Below are positions 15,702 to 25,307 of a stretch of 46,225 nucleotides of DNA, piece by piece. How positions within the stretch are numbered: position 1 is the stretch's first letter; each line of letters opens with the position of its first letter. The DNA is taken from assembly GCA_027315205.1 (NCBI GenBank), contig DAHUYM010000012.1, forward strand, positions 1 through 46,225, given 5' to 3'. The notes below the pieces were generated by a model. It did not search any database and was not told the origin of the DNA. It saw nothing but the letters and a program-made list of their open reading frames with translations. The translations under genes were made by a program, and so were the position numbers. This DNA comes from Leptospirillum sp. (lineage in GTDB: Bacteria; Nitrospirota; Leptospirillia; Leptospirillales; Leptospirillaceae).

Positions 15702-16070
15702 ATGAAAAAAGTCCCCGGCGTGAAACCCCTCCACTGGGTGGGATCGTCCAAGAAAGATCTCATGTCCATGCCGAAGAACGTGATCGATGAATTTGGATTT
15801 GCCCTTTTCCTGGCCCAAACAGGCCAAAAGCATCCTCAGGCCAAACCCCTTGCCGGCTTTGGGGCAGCAGACATTCTGGAAGTGGTTGAGAGCGATGCCG
15901 ATGGCACATTCCGGGCCATATACACGGTTCGCTTTCCGTCTGCAGTATATGTGCTGCATTGTTTCCAAAAAAAATCCCACAAGGGAATCGCAACCCCTAA
16001 ACAGGATAGCGATCTGATCAGACAAAGATTAAGACAAATCGAACTTCAGCATAAAGGAATCAAGCGATGA
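15702..16070 (+). CDS. higB: Type II toxin, HigB/RelE superfamily (Gp49-like)
   Basis: A 122-residue protein of the phage Gp49-like HigB group, ribosome-dependent mRNA interferases of the RelE fold. Family features seen: the N-terminal HWVGSSKKDL strand, an amphipathic FGFALFLAQ helix, the central KPLAGFG, the EVVESDADGTFRAIYTV sheet, and the C-terminal VLHCFQKKSHKGIATPKQD block that contains the putative active-site basic residues. The conserved N-terminal motif requires the start at 15702, even though the promoter -10 is only 7 nt away, which points to leaderless translation. It overlaps the antitoxin gene by four bases (ATGA). The toxin-first order is typical of higBA. Confidence 0.87.
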   Translation: MKKVPGVKPLHWVGSSKKDLMSMPKNVIDEFGFALFLAQTGQKHPQAKPLAGFGAADILEVVESDADGTFRAIYTVRFPSAVYVLHCFQKKSHKGIATPKQDSDLIRQRLRQIELQHKGIKR

Positions 16071-16405
16071 ACCATGCAGAGGAAGAGCCCGCATTTGAAA
16101 AGAGTTCGGGAAATGTCTACGCCGATCTCGGAGTTCCGGATGCAGAGGAAATGCTAGTCAAGGCTCGTCTCGTATCTCGAATTGCCGAAGTCATGACAAA
16201 ACGGAAACTGACCCAGGTTGAGGCCGCCAAGATTTTAGAAATGCCCCAACCCAAGATTTCCAATATGCTTAGAGGGCATTTCCGTGGGATTTCTCAGACC
16301 AAAATGATCGAATGCCTGACAAGACTGGGACTCGATGTCGAGATAGTGGTCAAAAAAGAAGAGCACTCTGGAGAAACGGGTCATATTTCGGTTGTATTTG
16401 CTTGA
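16067..16405 (+). CDS. higA: HigA-like antitoxin, XRE-family HTH (HTH_37 type)
   Basis: A 112-residue helix-turn-helix protein. The HTH is clear at about 46-75: KRKLTQVEAAKILEMPQPKISNMLRG. The C-terminal part with FRGISQTKMIECLTRLGLDVEI is characteristic of the antitoxins paired with Gp49-like toxins. The ATG overlaps the toxin's TGA. It should bind the toxin and repress the shared promoter, for which a palindrome over the -10 box is a good candidate operator. Codon and base use are more A+T-rich than chromosomal neighbours, consistent with acquisition with the tRNA-flanked segment. Confidence 0.87.
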   Translation: MNHAEEEPAFEKSSGNVYADLGVPDAEEMLVKARLVSRIAEVMTKRKLTQVEAAKILEMPQPKISNMLRGHFRGISQTKMIECLTRLGLDVEIVVKKEEHSGETGHISVVFA

Positions 16406-17465: not shown

Positions 17466-18164
17466 TCAAATCCGGCTTGCTGCGTTCATGACAACCAATT
17501 TCTTTCTACCGAAATAAAGCAACCCCGCGAGACCCGTCGCAAAAAGAAGCCACGTGGACGGTTCAGGCGTCATCGTCATCGTCAGAACCGCTGGTGCGCC
17601 GTTCGACTCGACGTAGATAAGTCCGACAAACTCAACTGTACTCGTCCCGGGGAGGAACCCTGTGGTCGTGATGGCGGATGTGGGGCTGGGAGACTCGAAC
17701 ACGGGCACGGTACCATGATCGGTGGTATAATAGAGCGATGCCCCGTCGTCATGCGTTACGGATACGTTCGCTCCCGAACCGGAATAGACGAATAAAAATT
17801 CAAGATAAGAATTATCGTTGAATCCGGGGGTGCTCATTGTCGTCCCCAGAAATGAACTCAGGGAAACGGTTCCTGAATACCTTGAAATCCCGGAAGTCTT
17901 GGATCCGAAGAAGTCCAGAAACGTATTCGATCCGTTTTGGCCATTGTTGTTGACGAAATCGATTGGGCCAGTATACAGAAAATTCGCAAAAAGGGGTTTT
18001 TTTGGCTGACTGGCTCGATTGGCCGTATCGGTGGTCCCGGGTCCAGACCACACTTCTACGCCAAAAGTGTTGCTGTAATAAGTTGCATGCGCCACGCCCA
18101 AAGACACGACGGACATGAGCCCGACAAGAAACCCGGAAAAAAGGGCTTTTCTGAATAAATTCAT
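17466..18164 (-). CDS. PEP-CTERM sorted exported protein (paralog 1)
   Basis: A 232-residue exported protein. It has a signal peptide (about 1-28, ending AHA-T) and a C-terminal PEP-CTERM sorting tail: TPEPSTWLLFATGLAGLL followed by YFGRKK. The tail targets the protein to exosortase/EpsH processing and the cell surface or matrix. The central region holds GPIDFVN-NGQ-G-NTF-FFGS and VSVTHDDGASLY; the latter resembles the core strand of PA14-type beta-sandwich domains that often bind sugars. The start is the ATG at 18164, with AGGAG seven bases upstream; an ATG five codons earlier overlaps that ribosome site and was rejected. It is clearly homologous to the protein at 18784-19476. No exosortase is in the window. 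Confidence 0.87.
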   Translation of the reverse strand: MNLFRKALFSGFLVGLMSVVSLGVAHATYYSNTFGVEVWSGPGTTDTANRASQPKKPLFANFLYTGPIDFVNNNGQNGSNTFLDFFGSKTSGISRYSGTVSLSSFLGTTMSTPGFNDNSYLEFLFVYSGSGANVSVTHDDGASLYYTTDHGTVPVFESPSPTSAITTTGFLPGTSTVEFVGLIYVESNGAPAVLTMTMTPEPSTWLLFATGLAGLLYFGRKKLVVMNAASRI

Positions 18165-18773
18165 GGATAATCTCCTCATTCAAAAATCAGGTTTTTTTGA
18201 TCGCCTTCTAAAATAATTCAAGCATTTCTTATGCCAGAATCAAAACGAACGGGACGGTTCTCAGAGAAAGAGATATCTCAAGAAACTTCGTTTCACGGGA
18301 GTCGATTTCTGCGCTCAAGCGACATTTTGGCAATGGCACCAAGTGTATAATCCACTGACGAATGACATCAAATATTTACACCCGTATTCACGAACCACAG
18401 GCACGAGACGTCTTTTTTGATATCCTTTGATTTCCCTATGCAGGCAGAAGAGTGATCGGGAAATAGCGGCTGGCTCAAAAAAGAAGGAATTCGTGAATCG
18501 GCTCTTCAAGACATACAAGCGGGTACAGAGGGAACGGAAGACGATCTGAGACATGGCTGGGGACCGATTCGATCCGTTCGGATCGATCACCGATGCCAGC
18601 GAAACCCGGAATGGACAAGCCCAGAAAAAAAGGGCAACTTTCGTTCAGGCATTCCTGAATGGGTCTCAGCGCTATTCGCCGATGACAATCCATTAGGAGT
18701 GGAGGTGACCTGCAACCCGCCTAACCGAAAGCCGCCCTGTTTTCAAAAGAAATATACGATTCTGATGCAAAGC
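18165..18773. other. Intergenic region without gene
   Basis: About 610 bases between the two PEP-CTERM paralogs. A 91-codon minus-strand frame (18315-18590) has no recognisable motif or ribosome site. The promoter of the left paralog should lie at its left end. Confidence 0.35.
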
Positions 18774-18793
18774 CCAGATCTTTTCAGATCTGG
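18774..18793 (-). terminator. Hairpin overlapping the stop of PEP-CTERM paralog 2
   Basis: Minus strand: CCAGATCT, loop GAAA, AGATCTGG. It is a perfect 8-bp stem with a GNRA-type loop, and the stop codon (18786-18784) lies in the loop-side arm. Only a weak T-rich stretch follows, so it may protect the mRNA 3' end rather than terminate efficiently. Confidence 0.45.
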
Positions 18794-19476
18794 TTCTTCA
18801 CGTTCCGAAAGGACATTTTTTTCTTGCCGAAGAACAACAAACCGGCCAACCCGGTTGCAAAAAGAAGCCAGGTAGAAGGCTCGGGAGTCGCCGTCATTGT
18901 CAGGACCGCCGGAGCACCATTCGACTCGACATAGACCAGAGTCAGCGGCTCCACGTTTCCAGACCCGGAAATGAACGGTACGAACGCCGTCGAAGTGATC
19001 GCCGAAGTCGGACCGGGAGATGTGAACAGCGACCCATTGGCATTGTAAAGACTCGCACCATCATCGTGGGTGACCGACACTGTCCCCGTACCATTAAAGT
19101 TAAAGTTGAACGCAAGATAAGAATTATACGTTTCCCCGGGTGTGCTCATCGTCGTATCGAGAAACTGGGTAAACGTGTCTGCGCTCGTGAAATTCGAAAT
19201 CCCGCCGGAATGGGATCCAAAGAACTCCCCGAATGTGTTGGTACCGCTTTGGCCATTTTCGTTGACAAAATCGATCGGTCCCGAATAGGTAAAAGTCGCA
19301 AACGGGGTTGCCGACGGCGTGGGCAACGTGGCGTATTTCGTGGTCGTGTTTCCATTCCAGACGCTCACCTGAAAGGTATTGGTATAGTAGGTCGCATGGG
19401 CGATTCCTATCGACATGGCCACCATCCAGCCCGCCATAACCCCGGTGAAAACCATCTTTTTCACGACACTTGTCAT
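18784..19476 (-). CDS. PEP-CTERM sorted exported protein (paralog 2)
   Basis: A 230-residue paralog of the neighbouring PEP-CTERM protein, with the same layout: signal peptide (about 1-29), the ATYYTNTF start of the mature part, GPIDFVNENGQSGTNTF, TTMSTPG, VSVTHDDGASLY, YVESNGAPAVLTMT, and the sorting tail TPEPSTWLLFATGLAGLLFFGKKK. Conserved blocks alternate with divergent linkers, so the duplication is not recent. The ATG at 19476 has AGGAGG six bases upstream; the longer frame to 19542 lacks a ribosome site. It probably ends up on the surface or in the biofilm matrix. The PA14-like DDGxxLY motif suggests carbohydrate binding, but that is inference. Confidence 0.87.
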   Translation of the reverse strand: MTSVVKKMVFTGVMAGWMVAMSIGIAHATYYTNTFQVSVWNGNTTTKYATLPTPSATPFATFTYSGPIDFVNENGQSGTNTFGEFFGSHSGGISNFTSADTFTQFLDTTMSTPGETYNSYLAFNFNFNGTGTVSVTHDDGASLYNANGSLFTSPGPTSAITSTAFVPFISGSGNVEPLTLVYVESNGAPAVLTMTATPEPSTWLLFATGLAGLLFFGKKKMSFRNVKNQI

Positions 19477-19897
19477 ATTCAGCCTCCTGTTCCAAATGGA
19501 ATCCCAATACTTCTGATGCGACTTTACTAATGCATTTAGCATGCCAATGCCATTTCAATGAATAAAAGAGGATCGCTCTTGGGGGATGCCGGGATACAAA
19601 ACATGGGGACTTACAGAAATGGCGTGGTTTTGCACTCATGAAAATGGCGTCTGGATCATCGCGACATGGATTTCGAGGACCAAAAATCCGTCTGTAATGG
19701 ATATTTAAAAAGAAAAATTTCCTAACGGGTGTAAAATTCTCTGACGCTCCCTTGCATCATTTCTTTACAACTCTTCGCCTTCCGAAATTCTGACGTGAAC
19801 GATTTCCCCGGGACACATACATCTTGAAAATATCCTTAATCACATTGCGAGACGGGTCCTAACGGTTTCAGAGGACCTTGCAACACCCAGCCGATCC
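19477..19897. other. Intergenic region without gene
   Basis: About 420 bases upstream of PEP-CTERM paralog 2 and downstream of the small membrane protein. I see no supported frame, RNA or repeat. Confidence 0.35.
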
Positions 19898-20470: not shown

Positions 20471-20671
20471 TCAGTGGCACATGATGAAACTGAAGGCGTG
20501 CCGCACGGGATGGACGGCATCATGCACCATCGGAAGCGGTGCGAAAAGAAGAAGATACACCGTCAGGGGCACCCACAGGCCGAGAAGCAGAACTCCGAGA
20601 ACGCGAACCCCGGAAAGGGCCGTGACCTGAGCGGCCGTTTTGACAGATTGAATGCGTGCGGCTTGGTTCAA
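20471..20671 (-). CDS. cbtB: CbtB-like cobalt transporter subunit
   Basis: A 66-residue protein matching CbtB: one transmembrane helix (about 22-44), then a C-terminal motif of metal-ligand residues, His50-Asp51, His54, Arg57-His58 and the terminal Cys65-His66. CbtB is predicted to work with the multi-helix CbtA in cobalt uptake. No cbtA is in the window, and I see no cobalamin riboswitch upstream. The start is TTG at 20671, with AAGGGGA six bases upstream; no in-frame ATG would serve. It lies 63 bases downstream of the glutaredoxin-like gene and 7 bases upstream of tRNA-Arg. Confidence 0.78.
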   Translation of the reverse strand: MNQAARIQSVKTAAQVTALSGVRVLGVLLLGLWVPLTVYLLLFAPLPMVHDAVHPVRHAFSFIMCH

Positions 20672-20734: not shown

Positions 20735-21052
20735 TCAGTGGGTTGGACAACCCTGGTTGATCGGAGTGGAATCCGACGAATCGACCGGCTTTACCAGCCC
20801 TTTCTGGATGAGGTATCCCTCCACTTCCTCTCCGCTGACATCGGCCAGCATCACGCCGTCGATTTCAACGCAGGGAGAAAGGCGCTGGTGGGATTTCTGG
20901 ACCATTTCCATATAGGCCACGGGATTGGAAATGACATCCACATCCTCGAACGGAAGATTGTATTTCCGGAGAACCGCCCGGACGCCGTTGGACCAGCCGC
21001 AGGTCGGCTTCAGATAGGCTTTTATCATAACTTTTTCTTGTGTTTCAGACAT
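20735..21052 (-). CDS. Monothiol glutaredoxin-like protein
   Basis: A 105-residue thioredoxin-fold protein with the active-site motif CGWS (Cys18 to Ser21), where classical monothiol glutaredoxins have CGFS. It keeps the TVE-type segment as SPCVEIDGV with the cis-proline, and the helix EEVEGYLIQKGL. Such proteins handle iron-sulfur clusters or glutathione-linked reductions in the cytoplasm. AGGAGG lies six bases before the ATG. Its position just after the iron-sulfur/NifS-like cluster fits an Fe-S or thiol role, though the partners are inferred. Confidence 0.82.
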   Translation of the reverse strand: MSETQEKVMIKAYLKPTCGWSNGVRAVLRKYNLPFEDVDVISNPVAYMEMVQKSHQRLSPCVEIDGVMLADVSGEEVEGYLIQKGLVKPVDSSDSTPINQGCPTH

Positions 21053-21148: not shown

Positions 21149-22051
21149 TCAGGGTGCCGGACGACGGTAAAGGTCCGATTCGAGATACGCTTCGAGGCCC
21201 ATGGGATTCAGGTTGAACGAGAGAGAAAGATCGTTCGGCATGGCGATGTTGTCTTCCAGGGCCATCTTGATCATCTCGCGCGTCAGAAACGGCACCGGAA
21301 GGATCCATTCCTGAAGAGTGGCCCCAAGCCCCAGGAGAGCCGGGGGCTGGGGAAGGATGAGTGCCTTCAGGTGCAGGGAAGCGATGAACGTTTCCATCAG
21401 TTCCCTGTAAGTATAGATCCTGGGTCCCCCGATCGAGTATGTCCTGCCGATGGTTTCCGGACGTTCCGCCGAAAGGGCCATGGCTCGGGCGAGATCCCCG
21501 ACATAGACAGGGTGGATTCGATTCGTCCCCGGCCCGATGACCGGAAGCACGTGGAATTTCTTTCCCATCGCGGCGAAGAGCGAAACGAACCGGTCCCCCG
21601 GACCGAAAATCACGCTCGGGCGAAACGTCGTCACATCCAGTCCGGACCAACGGAAAAGGTCCTCCGCCTGGAATTTCGTGCGATGGTAACGGGATACGGC
21701 GTCCCGCGATGCCCCGATCGCACTGACGTAGACCGCCCTCCGGACGCCCAGAGCCTTGGCCCGTTCTATAAGATTCCGGGTGCCTTCGACATGGATCTTC
21801 TCATAAGTCTGTGTCCGGGTTTCGGCCAGAATGCCGGTCAGGTGAAAAACCGCATCTGCCCCTTCCAGTGCCCGCGAGAGCGATTCGGGGTCCATGATGG
21901 AGCCGGCAAGCCATTCCGCGTTGGCGGGAAGCGGCTTCCCGGGTTTTCGGCGGGAAAGGACCCGGATCCAGCCCCCGGGGGAAAACCTCTCCCATTGCCC
22001 GATAAGAGCCCGGCCGACAAAACCCGTACCGCCGACGATCGTGATATTCAT
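21149..22051 (-). CDS. NDUFA9-like NAD(P)-binding atypical SDR protein
   Basis: A 300-residue extended short-chain dehydrogenase-like protein of the complex I NDUFA9/NmrA type. The Rossmann start ITIVGGTGFVGRAL (residues 3-16) carries the GxxGxxG motif. Further conserved parts are DAVFHLTGI, the VYVSAIGA strand, YHRTKFQAED with the Tyr-x-x-x-Lys pair, and TTFRPSVIFGPGDRF. It probably binds NAD(P) or a quinone/isoprenoid-like substrate; the catalytic role in this family is unclear. Its ATG overlaps the stop of the NifS-like gene (ATGA), so the two are coupled. A longer open frame upstream lies inside that gene and was rejected. Confidence 0.85.
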   Translation of the reverse strand: MNITIVGGTGFVGRALIGQWERFSPGGWIRVLSRRKPGKPLPANAEWLAGSIMDPESLSRALEGADAVFHLTGILAETRTQTYEKIHVEGTRNLIERAKALGVRRAVYVSAIGASRDAVSRYHRTKFQAEDLFRWSGLDVTTFRPSVIFGPGDRFVSLFAAMGKKFHVLPVIGPGTNRIHPVYVGDLARAMALSAERPETIGRTYSIGGPRIYTYRELMETFIASLHLKALILPQPPALLGLGATLQEWILPVPFLTREMIKMALEDNIAMPNDLSLSFNLNPMGLEAYLESDLYRRPAP

Positions 22052-23226
22052 TCCCCGCCCTTCCCCCGCATCGTGGGAGCGAGTCTCCTGAGGTCGTCCA
22101 AAACCTCGGGGAAACGCTCGCAAAACCGGTCGACGTCTCCCCGGTTCGTTTCCCAGCCCATGGTCAGGACGACCGATCCCTGTCCGACAACCGGGGGAAC
22201 ACCGAGTGCGGTCAGGACATGGGAGACCTTGAGGGAGTCCGAAGAGCACGAAGACCCGGTCCCGACTTCGATCCCTACAGAATCGAGCCTCGAGAGGGCC
22301 GCCTGCCCGTCGATCCCGTGCACCAGAAGATTCAGGATGCCGGGAATCCGTGGACCGTTCTTGGCCGCAATCTCGACGTCTTCCAGGCGTTCGGCAGTCC
22401 AATTCTCGACATGGCCGGTCAACGAGTGGAGCCGGCTCGCCTCTTCTGCCTGGAATTGGTCCCAGTGGCGAAGGGCGGCCTCCCATCCTTGCGCAAGGAA
22501 CACCGGAACCGACCCTCCCCGGCGCCCGCCCTCCTGGGCTCCTCCCTCGATCAGGGGAGAAATCCGAATCCCCCTGCGAACAACCAGGGCGGCGATACCG
22601 GGAGGCCCACCCATCCGGCCCGAAGAGACGCTAAGAAGGTCAATGGGGTGTTCGTCCAGCCGGATCCGGACCGAGGATGCCGCCGCCACGAAATCGACAT
22701 GGAGAACCCCTCCCCTTTCCCGCACGATCCGGCCGATGGGGTCGATGGGCTGAACGAGGCCCACTTCGGGGTTGGCCCACTGGACGGAAACGAGAAAGGG
22801 GGGTTCCGGAAGCTCGCGTTCAAACCGGTCGAGGTCGACGGTCCCGTCGGAAAGCAACGGGATCATGCCGACCGGAATCCCTTCCTCGACGCCCCGGGTC
22901 CGGGCCGCATTCAGGACCGACACGTGCTCCAGGGGGGAGACCCTCATTCCCCTCGGGGAGGCGCCCTTTCGCATGACGGTCCGCTCGATGGCCCAGGTAT
23001 TGGCTTCGGAAGCGCTGGAGGTAAAGACCACTTCGGCAGGATGCGCCCCAAAGATCCCCGCAAGGGTTTCGCGGGCCTTTTCGAGCCGCTCCTTTGCCCG
23101 GAGGCCCCGGCGGGACCGGCTCATCGCGTTGGCCTCGAGAGCCAGACCATCAGTTACGGCCTGGACTACGCCGGGCCTGAGCGGCATCTGGTTGTCGCTG
23201 TCGAAGAAGGCCGGCTTACGGGTCAT
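22048..23226 (-). CDS. NifS/IscS-like class V aminotransferase homolog lacking the PLP lysine
   Basis: A 392-residue cysteine-desulfurase-fold protein. By alignment to IscS, the positions kept are His101 (LEHVSV; IscS His104), Asp178 (HVDFV; Asp180), the RRGGSVPV region and the sulfur-carrying Cys327 in GTGSSCSSDS (Cys328). The Schiff-base lysine is not kept: IscS has SxHKxxGPxG, here it is SSGRMGGPPG with Arg204 (codon CGG). The N-terminal N-A-A-T-T motif is also altered (SDNQMPL), and the PLP-stacking Gln after Asp178 is Ala. The frame is intact and the gene sits in a tight cluster, so this is not simple decay. It may be a pseudoenzyme or scaffold, or use different chemistry. It overlaps DUF3501 upstream by 11 bases and the SDR gene downstream by four. 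Confidence 0.85.
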   Translation of the reverse strand: MTRKPAFFDSDNQMPLRPGVVQAVTDGLALEANAMSRSRRGLRAKERLEKARETLAGIFGAHPAEVVFTSSASEANTWAIERTVMRKGASPRGMRVSPLEHVSVLNAARTRGVEEGIPVGMIPLLSDGTVDLDRFERELPEPPFLVSVQWANPEVGLVQPIDPIGRIVRERGGVLHVDFVAAASSVRIRLDEHPIDLLSVSSGRMGGPPGIAALVVRRGIRISPLIEGGAQEGGRRGGSVPVFLAQGWEAALRHWDQFQAEEASRLHSLTGHVENWTAERLEDVEIAAKNGPRIPGILNLLVHGIDGQAALSRLDSVGIEVGTGSSCSSDSLKVSHVLTALGVPPVVGQGSVVLTMGWETNRGDVDRFCERFPEVLDDLRRLAPTMRGKGGE

Positions 23227-23812
23227 CGCGGAGGTCTTGCTTTAGGCTTTCGATCATCTCTCCCGAAAGGGGGGCCATGGCCGAATACCTTGGATGGTCG
23301 GACAGGAGCATGACCCTGTCGGTCGGTTTTCTCTCCAGAAAATGCCTCCGGACTTCGGGAGAAAACCCGAATGTCACGTAATGGACAGAGCTGAGCTTTT
23401 CCTCCGTCGACCGGTCGGGCTCGAACTGGGCGGTGACACGGTCGTTTCCGAAGACGATGTGGATGTAGGGTCCACGATCCAGTCCTTTCAAGTGCTCGAG
23501 CGTTTCACGAATGCGGTCTTCCTCGGTGATCTCGATCATCAGGGTCGCCTTGAGCTCCCCGTTTCCGGGAACCATGTCGTTATAGACCCGGACCTCCTCT
23601 TCCCGCTTTGATTCGTCCGTCTGTCGTTCGACGAACAGCATTTCCTGGATCTGGAACAGGACGGTTTCCCGGTTTTCGAACACCAGTCGGACCAGGGGGC
23701 CGAGGTTGATCGCCCGGTGCTTCTTCAAGGTAATGACCCGGGAGCGAAACTCGGCCCGTCGCTTTTCGTATTCGGCGTTCGGAATCAGTTCCGAAACCGC
23801 GATCTTCTTCAT
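23216..23812 (-). CDS. DUF3501 family protein
   Basis: A 198-residue cytoplasmic protein of the DUF3501 family. Conserved stretches: an N-terminal YEKRRAEFRSRVITLKKHR, then LGPLVRLVFENRETVLFQIQEML, the acidic ITEEDRIRETLEHLKGLD, and an IHIVFGNDRVTAQFEPDRST strand pair. The function is unknown. In many bacteria DUF3501 genes sit beside an Hdr/GlpC-type iron-sulfur protein and rubrerythrin; here the iron-sulfur gene is directly upstream (88-base gap), but there is no rubrerythrin. The ATG at 23812 has a GGAAAGGA upstream. The stop overlaps the start of the NifS-like gene. Confidence 0.83.
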   Translation of the reverse strand: MKKIAVSELIPNAEYEKRRAEFRSRVITLKKHRAINLGPLVRLVFENRETVLFQIQEMLFVERQTDESKREEEVRVYNDMVPGNGELKATLMIEITEEDRIRETLEHLKGLDRGPYIHIVFGNDRVTAQFEPDRSTEEKLSSVHYVTFGFSPEVRRHFLERKPTDRVMLLSDHPRYSAMAPLSGEMIESLKQDLRDDP

Positions 23813-23899: not shown

Positions 23900-25141
23900 T
23901 CACAATCCATACGCCTGGCGAAGCAAAACCGCGGGATGTTCGACGATCCGCCCCGCTGCAGCACCGATCGCCCCCCCCGCCAGCGGGCAATCGGAAATCC
24001 ACCGGTCGGCCGTTCCTTCCGCCATGCCGGCCGCCGTCTTTTCCGCCCGTTTCAGGGCGTCCGGGAAATGCGCGACCTGGACCCCCCACGTTCCCCCATG
24101 CCCGGAACACATTTCATAGGGGGTCACCCGGGTGTCCGGGAGCAGGTTCAGGATCTCCCGGACCGGAGCCCCGATGTTCTGGTCCCGGAGATGGCAGGGG
24201 ACGTGGTAAGCGATGCGGCCCGCACCCCTCTTGAAATCGGTCCGCAGGAGATTGCGATTTTTGAGATGATTCAGGTACTGGAAGAAATCCCATGTCGCGC
24301 CGGCCAGTGTCCCGAGAGCCACCTCGGGCGCATGCTGGGCGTATTCTTTCTTGAGAGTCATGGTGCATGTCGGGACGGGCGCAACCAGTTTGTATCCCTC
24401 ACGGACATAGGGACCATACATTTTCAGCACGCGTTCGGCGCTTTCCCGGAACCCGGAAAGGTTCCCGGTGTCCAGGTGGGGCATTCCGCAGCAGACAGAC
24501 CCCGGAAAAACGACGGGAATCCCCTGGTGTTCCAGGATCTTCAGGACACTTTCCGGGAGATCGGGATCCTGGTAATTTCCAAGACATGTGGCGAACAGGA
24601 CCACCTTTTCGTCCCCGATGTCCCGGGAGGGCAACGGGTGTGGACGGGCCCGTTCCCGGTACCGTTCCTCGAACGTCTGGTGGGCGTAGGGTAGAATCGG
24701 GGCGCGGGCATGCAGGCCCAGAAAGGATTGCGCGATCCGGCGGGAGATCGCGTTCTTGAGGGCGGCGTTCACCATGCCCGAAAAACGGGTCCCCAGTCGT
24801 CCCAGCCGGTCGGTCTCCTCCATCAGGCGTTCGGAAATCCGGACCTCGCCCCGGGCGAACCGGTTCGCCTTGGCACGGAGCATGAGGGACGGGAAGTCCA
24901 GCATGTACGCATGCGGCGGACAGTACGGGCAGTGGTTGAAACAGAGCTTGCAATAGTTGCACCCTTCGAGAGTCCGGTCGAGGGAACCGGCCGGGAGCCG
25001 TTCGGGCACACCGTCGATCGCCGGCTGGTCCAGGAGGGAGAACAGAGTGTCGAAGGAAGGGCAGAGACGGAAACACCTCCGGCACCCGTTACAGACGTCC
25101 GCCACCCTGAGCCATTCCCCGGCCAGGTTTTCTTCCCTCAT
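23900..25141 (-). CDS. (Fe-S)-binding oxidoreductase, HdrD/GlpC-like
   Basis: A 413-residue cytoplasmic or membrane-associated electron-transfer protein. Two [4Fe-4S] ferredoxin motifs lie near the N-terminus: Cys17, 20, 23, 27 (CNGCRRCFRLCP) and Cys61, 64, 67, 71 (CNYCKLCFNHCP, plus an extra Cys74). Two CCG-type domains follow: LFATCLGNY with VCCGMPHLDTGN, and VPCHLRDQN with the second site reading CSGHGGTWG. In HdrB/HdrD such Cys-rich sites hold noncubane clusters that reduce disulfides. The chosen ATG (25141) has GGAAGG seven bases upstream; ATG 25156 is an alternative. It is the first gene of the cluster with DUF3501, the NifS-like protein and the SDR. Confidence 0.87.
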   Translation of the reverse strand: MREENLAGEWLRVADVCNGCRRCFRLCPSFDTLFSLLDQPAIDGVPERLPAGSLDRTLEGCNYCKLCFNHCPYCPPHAYMLDFPSLMLRAKANRFARGEVRISERLMEETDRLGRLGTRFSGMVNAALKNAISRRIAQSFLGLHARAPILPYAHQTFEERYRERARPHPLPSRDIGDEKVVLFATCLGNYQDPDLPESVLKILEHQGIPVVFPGSVCCGMPHLDTGNLSGFRESAERVLKMYGPYVREGYKLVAPVPTCTMTLKKEYAQHAPEVALGTLAGATWDFFQYLNHLKNRNLLRTDFKRGAGRIAYHVPCHLRDQNIGAPVREILNLLPDTRVTPYEMCSGHGGTWGVQVAHFPDALKRAEKTAAGMAEGTADRWISDCPLAGGAIGAAAGRIVEHPAVLLRQAYGL

Positions 25142-25307
25142 TCCGGCGCCTTCCATATGAACCTGGTTTTTGCCTCCGTTCCGGAGAATCCATGACTTGG
25201 AAACGTGCTTGTTTCCCATGGAAATTTCGTCCATCATAGCACGAAAAGACGGCGGCGGCAGGGCCGCAAACTCAACCGGACAAGAACTCCCAGGAGCCCT
25301 CCGAAGC

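Follow-up and report, generated by a model that had tools for sequence, protein, structure and literature searches.

In the bacterial Isc systems that have been studied well, the first step belongs to a PLP-dependent cysteine desulfurase. Forms of IscS that lack the PLP lysine have already been described in archaea. That of A. fulgidus is inactive, and supplies a Cys ligand to the [2Fe-2S] cluster on IscU (PMC7585200), while IscS1 of Methanosarcina acetivorans has been reported to be without the catalytic lysine (PMC7585200). Sulfide is able to feed the archaeal SMS system (PMC12192291), and in E. coli the K206A mutant of IscS has no desulfurase activity and still binds some PLP (PMC9978102). 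No earlier report of a lysine-less IscS in bacteria was found in the literature, searched in open-access full texts, and the bacterial variant described here, together with its setting, is new.

The window analysed is a stretch of 46,225 nucleotides from a Leptospirillum genome of 2.0 Mb that is 99.93% complete (G000); the family Leptospirillaceae is represented by 21 genomes in the collection. On the reverse strand, at 22048-23226, the window has an intact frame for a protein of 392 residues, P0001, which matches Aminotran_5 (PF00266) with 138 bits and has the class V aminotransferase fold. The initial annotation was thus right to describe it as an intact homologue of cysteine desulfurases. 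It is nevertheless far under the curated cut-offs of the NCBIfam NifS/IscS equivalog models, the best of these being FeS_nifS (254.7 bits, against a cut-off of 530.75). Alignment with E. coli IscS puts Arg204 (codon CGG, 22615-22617, reverse strand) at the site of the PLP lysine, Lys206, as had been noted from the sequence, and this codon is two base changes away from AAG. The reported loss of the N-terminal NAATT-type motif (NxATT in general form) and the retention of the His, Asp and Cys positions are also borne out, the residues kept being His101 (H104 in E. coli), Asp178 (D180) and Cys327 (C328; codon TGC, 22246-22248, reverse strand), together with Ser201 (S203). Asn155 and His205 are replaced by Pro153 and Gly203. 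The statement that the PLP-stacking Gln is lost holds only in part: Gln183 is indeed gone (Ala181), but it is the retained His that stacks on PLP, the Gln being another of the PLP contacts. One further loss is at a position that the initial annotation did not mention, the site of Arg354, which we take to be the arginine that holds the substrate carboxylate, and which is Val353 in P0001. P0001 also lacks the C-terminal tail found in E. coli IscS and in the IscS encoded by the isc operon of the same genome.

An alignment (A1) was made of P0001 and 14 orthologues from Leptospirillaceae. Position 204 is not Lys in any of the 15 sequences: it is Arg in the three nearest orthologues (59-61% identity), Ala or Ser in those of G003 and G007, and Ala, Ser or Val in genus g3. 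The invariant residues include H101, D178, S201, S202, Q231, E232, R235, R236, C327 and V353, so that the Arg354 site is Val throughout, and Cys327 with its loop is among the most conserved stretches. There is no invariant lysine anywhere in the 15 sequences. The values of dN/dS (NG86) for six pairs of orthologues are 0.09-0.22; dS is high in the distant pairs, and the safest values are those for the two closest pairs, 0.17 and 0.13. The initial annotation had proposed a search of orthologues for the same change from Lys to Arg; all of them lack the Lys, the three nearest with Arg in its place. It had also allowed for two ways in which it might be mistaken: a local error, with Lys in the orthologues, which fails on all 15 sequences, and PLP bound through another lysine, which fails at the level of the family on the lack of an invariant one. 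That P0001 is a normal desulfurase using a different lysine, or a decaying gene, or the product of a local sequencing error, is hardly credible, given also that the frames of the orthologues are intact, that dN/dS lies in the range quoted, and that the two-base change from Lys to Arg is shared with independent genomes.

A profile made from A1 was run over 396 genomes of the phylum. Among the matches listed, the Leptospirillaceae orthologues score at least 577 bits and all others at most 325 bits, and no close orthologue of P0001 was found outside the family in the named genome collection. Because of this gap, the lack of close orthologues elsewhere and the dN/dS values, the P0001 family is specific to Leptospirillaceae and under purifying selection. 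The identity to the counterpart in genus g4 is 47% for P0001, compared to 80% for the IscS of the isc operon, and P0001 looks to be a fast-evolving relative of the lysine-less IscS of the A. fulgidus type.

The two losses, of Lys and of Arg, go together in a wider set of NifS/IscS-fold proteins. Arg is present at the 354 site in 55 of the 58 Lys-bearing rows collected and in 0 of the 53 Lys-less rows outside the isc-operon IscS, which have V, I, L or M instead, and the loop Cys is kept in 79 of 79 Lys-less rows; the rows are related sequences, and the counts are not independent events. An earlier quick tree had joined long branches, and a careful tree was built without the longest rows. In this tree a branch with 83/75 support (not starred, with long branches) sets the Arg-less rows apart: the P0001 family, the Lys-less IscS of Nitrospirota, A. 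fulgidus IscS, a single deltaproteobacterial MAG, and two rows that have Lys and no Arg. The grouping of P0001 with A. fulgidus IscS and the Lys-less Nitrospirota IscS is therefore suggestive only. The isc-operon IscS of Leptospirillaceae is sister to E. coli IscS in the same tree (support 100/98), and Lys has been lost separately in the two classes.

The structure of P0001 predicted by AlphaFold, from 33 sequences, has a mean pLDDT of 92.1 and a pTM of 0.91. Values below 50 are found only at the Cys loop (residues 328-330), as expected of a mobile loop, and at the C-terminus. Foldseek matches the model to human NFS1 and E. coli IscS with TM scores of about 0.9, and to A. fulgidus IscS (4eb5) with an rmsd of 1.9; the last of these is also the best sequence match in the PDB. 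By homology, P0001 would be dimeric.

The genes around P0001 are in the order RFO, DUF3501, P0001, SDR, glutaredoxin and CbtB-like, all on the reverse strand. The DUF3501 protein (PF12007, 209.8 bits; 23216-23812) overlaps the start of P0001 by about 11 nt, and the NAD-dependent epimerase/SDR (21149-22051) shares an ATGA with its stop, in agreement with the tight operon described at the outset. Upstream of DUF3501 is RFO, a GlpC-like Fe-S oxidoreductase with CCG and 4Fe-4S domains (23900-25219, the start being putative), and downstream of the SDR are a monothiol-type glutaredoxin (20735-21052), the CGWS motif of which is invariant in 14 aligned copies, and a small CbtB-like membrane protein (PF09489, 31.5 bits; 20471-20671, probably with a TTG start). 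At the other end of the operon a CoA-binding-domain gene (PF13380; 25161-25739 on the forward strand, stop to stop) is divergent and is kept in most loci. The SDR is the next gene in nearly all orthologous loci, and the SDR, glutaredoxin and CbtB-like genes are present wherever the contig or the fetched stretch reaches. DUF3501 is adjacent only in genera g1, g2, g4 and g5, and RFO is beside the P0001 gene only in g1, g2 and g5; the loci of g3 have neither and those of g4 have no RFO, and the P0001 orthologue persists in both. The suggestion in the initial annotation that P0001 is a partner of the Hdr-like iron-sulfur protein, here RFO, is thus weak, since most orthologous loci have no RFO, and the neighbours that remain are the SDR, glutaredoxin and CbtB-like genes. 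Elsewhere in the window, 15702-16405 (forward) holds a Gp49-like (PF05973) and HTH_37 pair that looks like a HigBA-type toxin-antitoxin system, and two related PEP-CTERM proteins lie in tandem on the reverse strand at 17466-18179 and 18784-19542.

DUF3501 and RFO usually accompany an aerobic-type rubrerythrin (PMC5114695), and their position immediately upstream of P0001 would fit a module for defence against hydrogen peroxide built on such a rubrerythrin system, with P0001 delivering sulfur or clusters to RFO. The full module of rubrerythrin, DUF3501 and RFO is not complete in G000, where no rubrerythrin (PF02915) is found above the cut-off, and the P0001 orthologue persists in g4 without RFO and in g3 without either gene, which makes a role of this kind quite unlikely.

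The glutaredoxin is the more consistent neighbour, and monothiol CGWS glutaredoxins carry [2Fe-2S] clusters in other organisms. Between it and the SDR gene there is a sigma-70-like stretch, TTGAGT-17-TACAAT, identified by eye, and the glutaredoxin may be transcribed also on its own from this predicted promoter. No match to IscU, IscR or TusA was found near P0001, either in the window or in the orthologous loci, the only exception being the isc operon of G005, at a distance of 15-16 kb. The Lys-less IscS genes of other Nitrospirota do have such neighbours, namely IscR, IscU and often TusA: an IscS-like gene is beside IscR, IscU and/or TusA at L084-L087, L090, L093, L094, L096, L099 and L103, most of these having no Arg354 and the PLP lysine replaced by Gln or Arg, and L099 having lost Arg354 and kept the Lys. 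These neighbours support a role in sulfur or cluster handling for the Lys-less class, although P0001 has departed from that context.

Having neither the lysine that forms the Schiff base nor the arginine that holds the substrate carboxylate, P0001 would be inactive as a PLP cysteine desulfurase. The absence of Lys and of any invariant substitute, the purifying selection and the loss of the substrate arginine strongly support the earlier reading of P0001 as a pseudoenzyme, and it is very likely a Cys-bearing one. The accompanying suggestion of a persulfide carrier is plausible, because Cys327 is invariant. We infer that P0001 most likely works through Cys327 on its flexible loop, which would make no persulfide from cysteine and would receive sulfur from sulfide or from a carrier persulfide; alternatively, Cys327 could be a direct thiolate ligand during the assembly or transfer of an Fe-S cluster. 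The neighbouring CGWS glutaredoxin would be the likely carrier or partner. Taken as a whole, this explanation, of a NifS/IscS fold that is not a desulfurase and acts via Cys327, either relaying persulfide or ligating an Fe-S cluster, with glutaredoxin as likely carrier, is in our view evenly poised between right and wrong. It has against it that P0001 has no IscU, IscR or TusA beside it, unlike its Lys-less relatives; that strong support is lacking for the grouping with A. fulgidus IscS, in which there are long branches; that the promoter could mean separate transcription of the glutaredoxin; and that PLP or PMP might still be bound, because the His and Asp are invariant.

This last point could be taken further, to an enzyme without the lysine that uses non-covalent PLP or PMP for some other reaction. 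The pocket residues His101, Asp178, Ser201 and Ser202 are all invariant, and the E. coli K206A mutant is a precedent for retention of the cofactor, but position 204 varies freely between R, A, S and V and so offers no catalytic group, and the equivalents of the carboxylate Arg, Asn155 and Gln183 are lost; we consider such an enzyme very unlikely. Dead paralogues often become regulators, and P0001 might instead be a dead subunit that binds another sulfur protein (isc-operon IscS, IscU or glutaredoxin) and exerts allosteric control, Cys327 serving only as a sensor. The coexistence of two Lys-less NifS-fold proteins in G000 and the fast evolution of P0001 relative to the isc-operon IscS are in keeping with this, but a purely structural role has no need of the conserved Cys327 and its loop, and P0001 has no counterpart of the E. 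coli IscS tail, which the isc-operon protein keeps. A regulatory partner is on balance unlikely.

The second of these Lys-less proteins is the isc-operon IscS of G000 (C38, 14783-15871; 8772-9983 of L081). The operon has the order iscR-iscS-iscU-iscA-hscB-hscA-fdx. The isc-operon IscS of Leptospirillaceae is about 54% identical to E. coli IscS, yet has Leu at K206, as do the isc-operon IscS of all the relatives in the family that were examined; H104, D180 and Q183 are lost too, while R354, the Cys and the C-terminal tail are kept. Despite this its score is above one NCBIfam IscS equivalog cut-off (615.6 bits, against 548), a pass that we flag as a misannotation. The genome-wide statements made here rest on family searches. 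That for PF00266 in G000 matched nothing beyond the two Lys-less proteins (P0001 with Arg, the isc-operon IscS with Leu) and three unrelated enzymes with a PLP fold, and revealed no Lys-bearing cysteine desulfurase in this 99.93% complete genome. The SufB/D core was found in none of the 21 Leptospirillaceae genomes, and all 14 control genomes gave matches. The Lys-bearing NifS of other Leptospirillaceae genomes belongs to a nif cluster in G003 (the one genome examined by eye) or otherwise to related or accessory types. At L194 and L195, in G003 and G011, Lys-bearing NifS-like genes are split over two frames, and may be pseudogenes or sequencing errors. Genes of a sulfate-reduction set resembling sat-aprBA (L081:1287-4846) adjoin the isc operon in G000, and likewise in G002, G004 and G005, three genomes in which no Lys-bearing desulfurase was found; the isc and sat-aprBA names are from similarity and reading, and the Pfam check of them covered no more than IscR, IscS, IscU and, with lower specificity, AprA.

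Also encoded in G000 are MnmA, a single rhodanese, four TusA domains and one PLP enzyme of Cys/Met metabolism, a class that includes enzymes able to release sulfide from cysteine. This enzyme could be the source of the desulfurase activity of Leptospirillum extracts, which has been credited to IscS (PMC9628965); the strain used in that study presumably carries the Leu form, because all Leptospirillaceae genomes examined have it.

The family thus has two different Lys-less NifS-fold proteins, no Suf, and Lys-bearing NifS only of nif type or as scattered accessories. If the Lys-less proteins are inactive, the sulfur for Fe-S assembly in Leptospirillaceae must come from sulfide or a carrier, as has been proposed for some archaea. 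Our tentative proposal, which we hold at a little less than even confidence, is that these iron-oxidising bacteria build Fe-S clusters without a housekeeping PLP cysteine desulfurase, their only system being Isc with a Lys-less IscS that runs on sulfide or carrier-borne sulfur, and that P0001, another dead NifS that relies on its Cys, works with the monothiol glutaredoxin on a side branch. The Lys-less IscS in the sole housekeeping Isc system of a whole family is a more interesting result than P0001 itself, and raises a testable question, namely whether IscS acts as Cys ligand or relay only.

Among known systems, E. coli IscS and human NFS1 share with P0001 the fold and the Cys loop, and differ in being active PLP enzymes with Lys206 and Arg354. 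The Leptospirillaceae isc-operon IscS, like P0001, has no Lys and keeps the Cys, but is a true IscS orthologue with Arg354 and the tail kept and His104, Asp180 and Gln183 lost. The Lys-less IscS of other Nitrospirota (L084-L087, L090, L093, L094, L096 and L103) has Q or R at the Lys, no Arg354, and the Cys, His and Asp, as P0001 does; it differs in belonging to an isc-like operon, and is 32-36% identical to P0001. M. acetivorans IscS1 is comparable through the report of its Lys loss, and any action that it has would be as one of an isc pair, with IscU1. A. fulgidus IscS (PDB 4eb5 and 4hvk; D199K mutant 4r5f) also has its Lys replaced, in this case by Asp, keeps the Cys loop, His and Asp, and has lost Gln183; at the Lys, Arg354 and Cys sites it reads D/L/C where P0001 reads R/V/C, the Arg354 site being hydrophobic in both. 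P0001 has GPPG in place of GPKG, and where A. fulgidus IscS is archaeal and acts with IscU, P0001 has no IscU nearby and belongs to a family that evolves fast within a lineage of aerobic bacteria.
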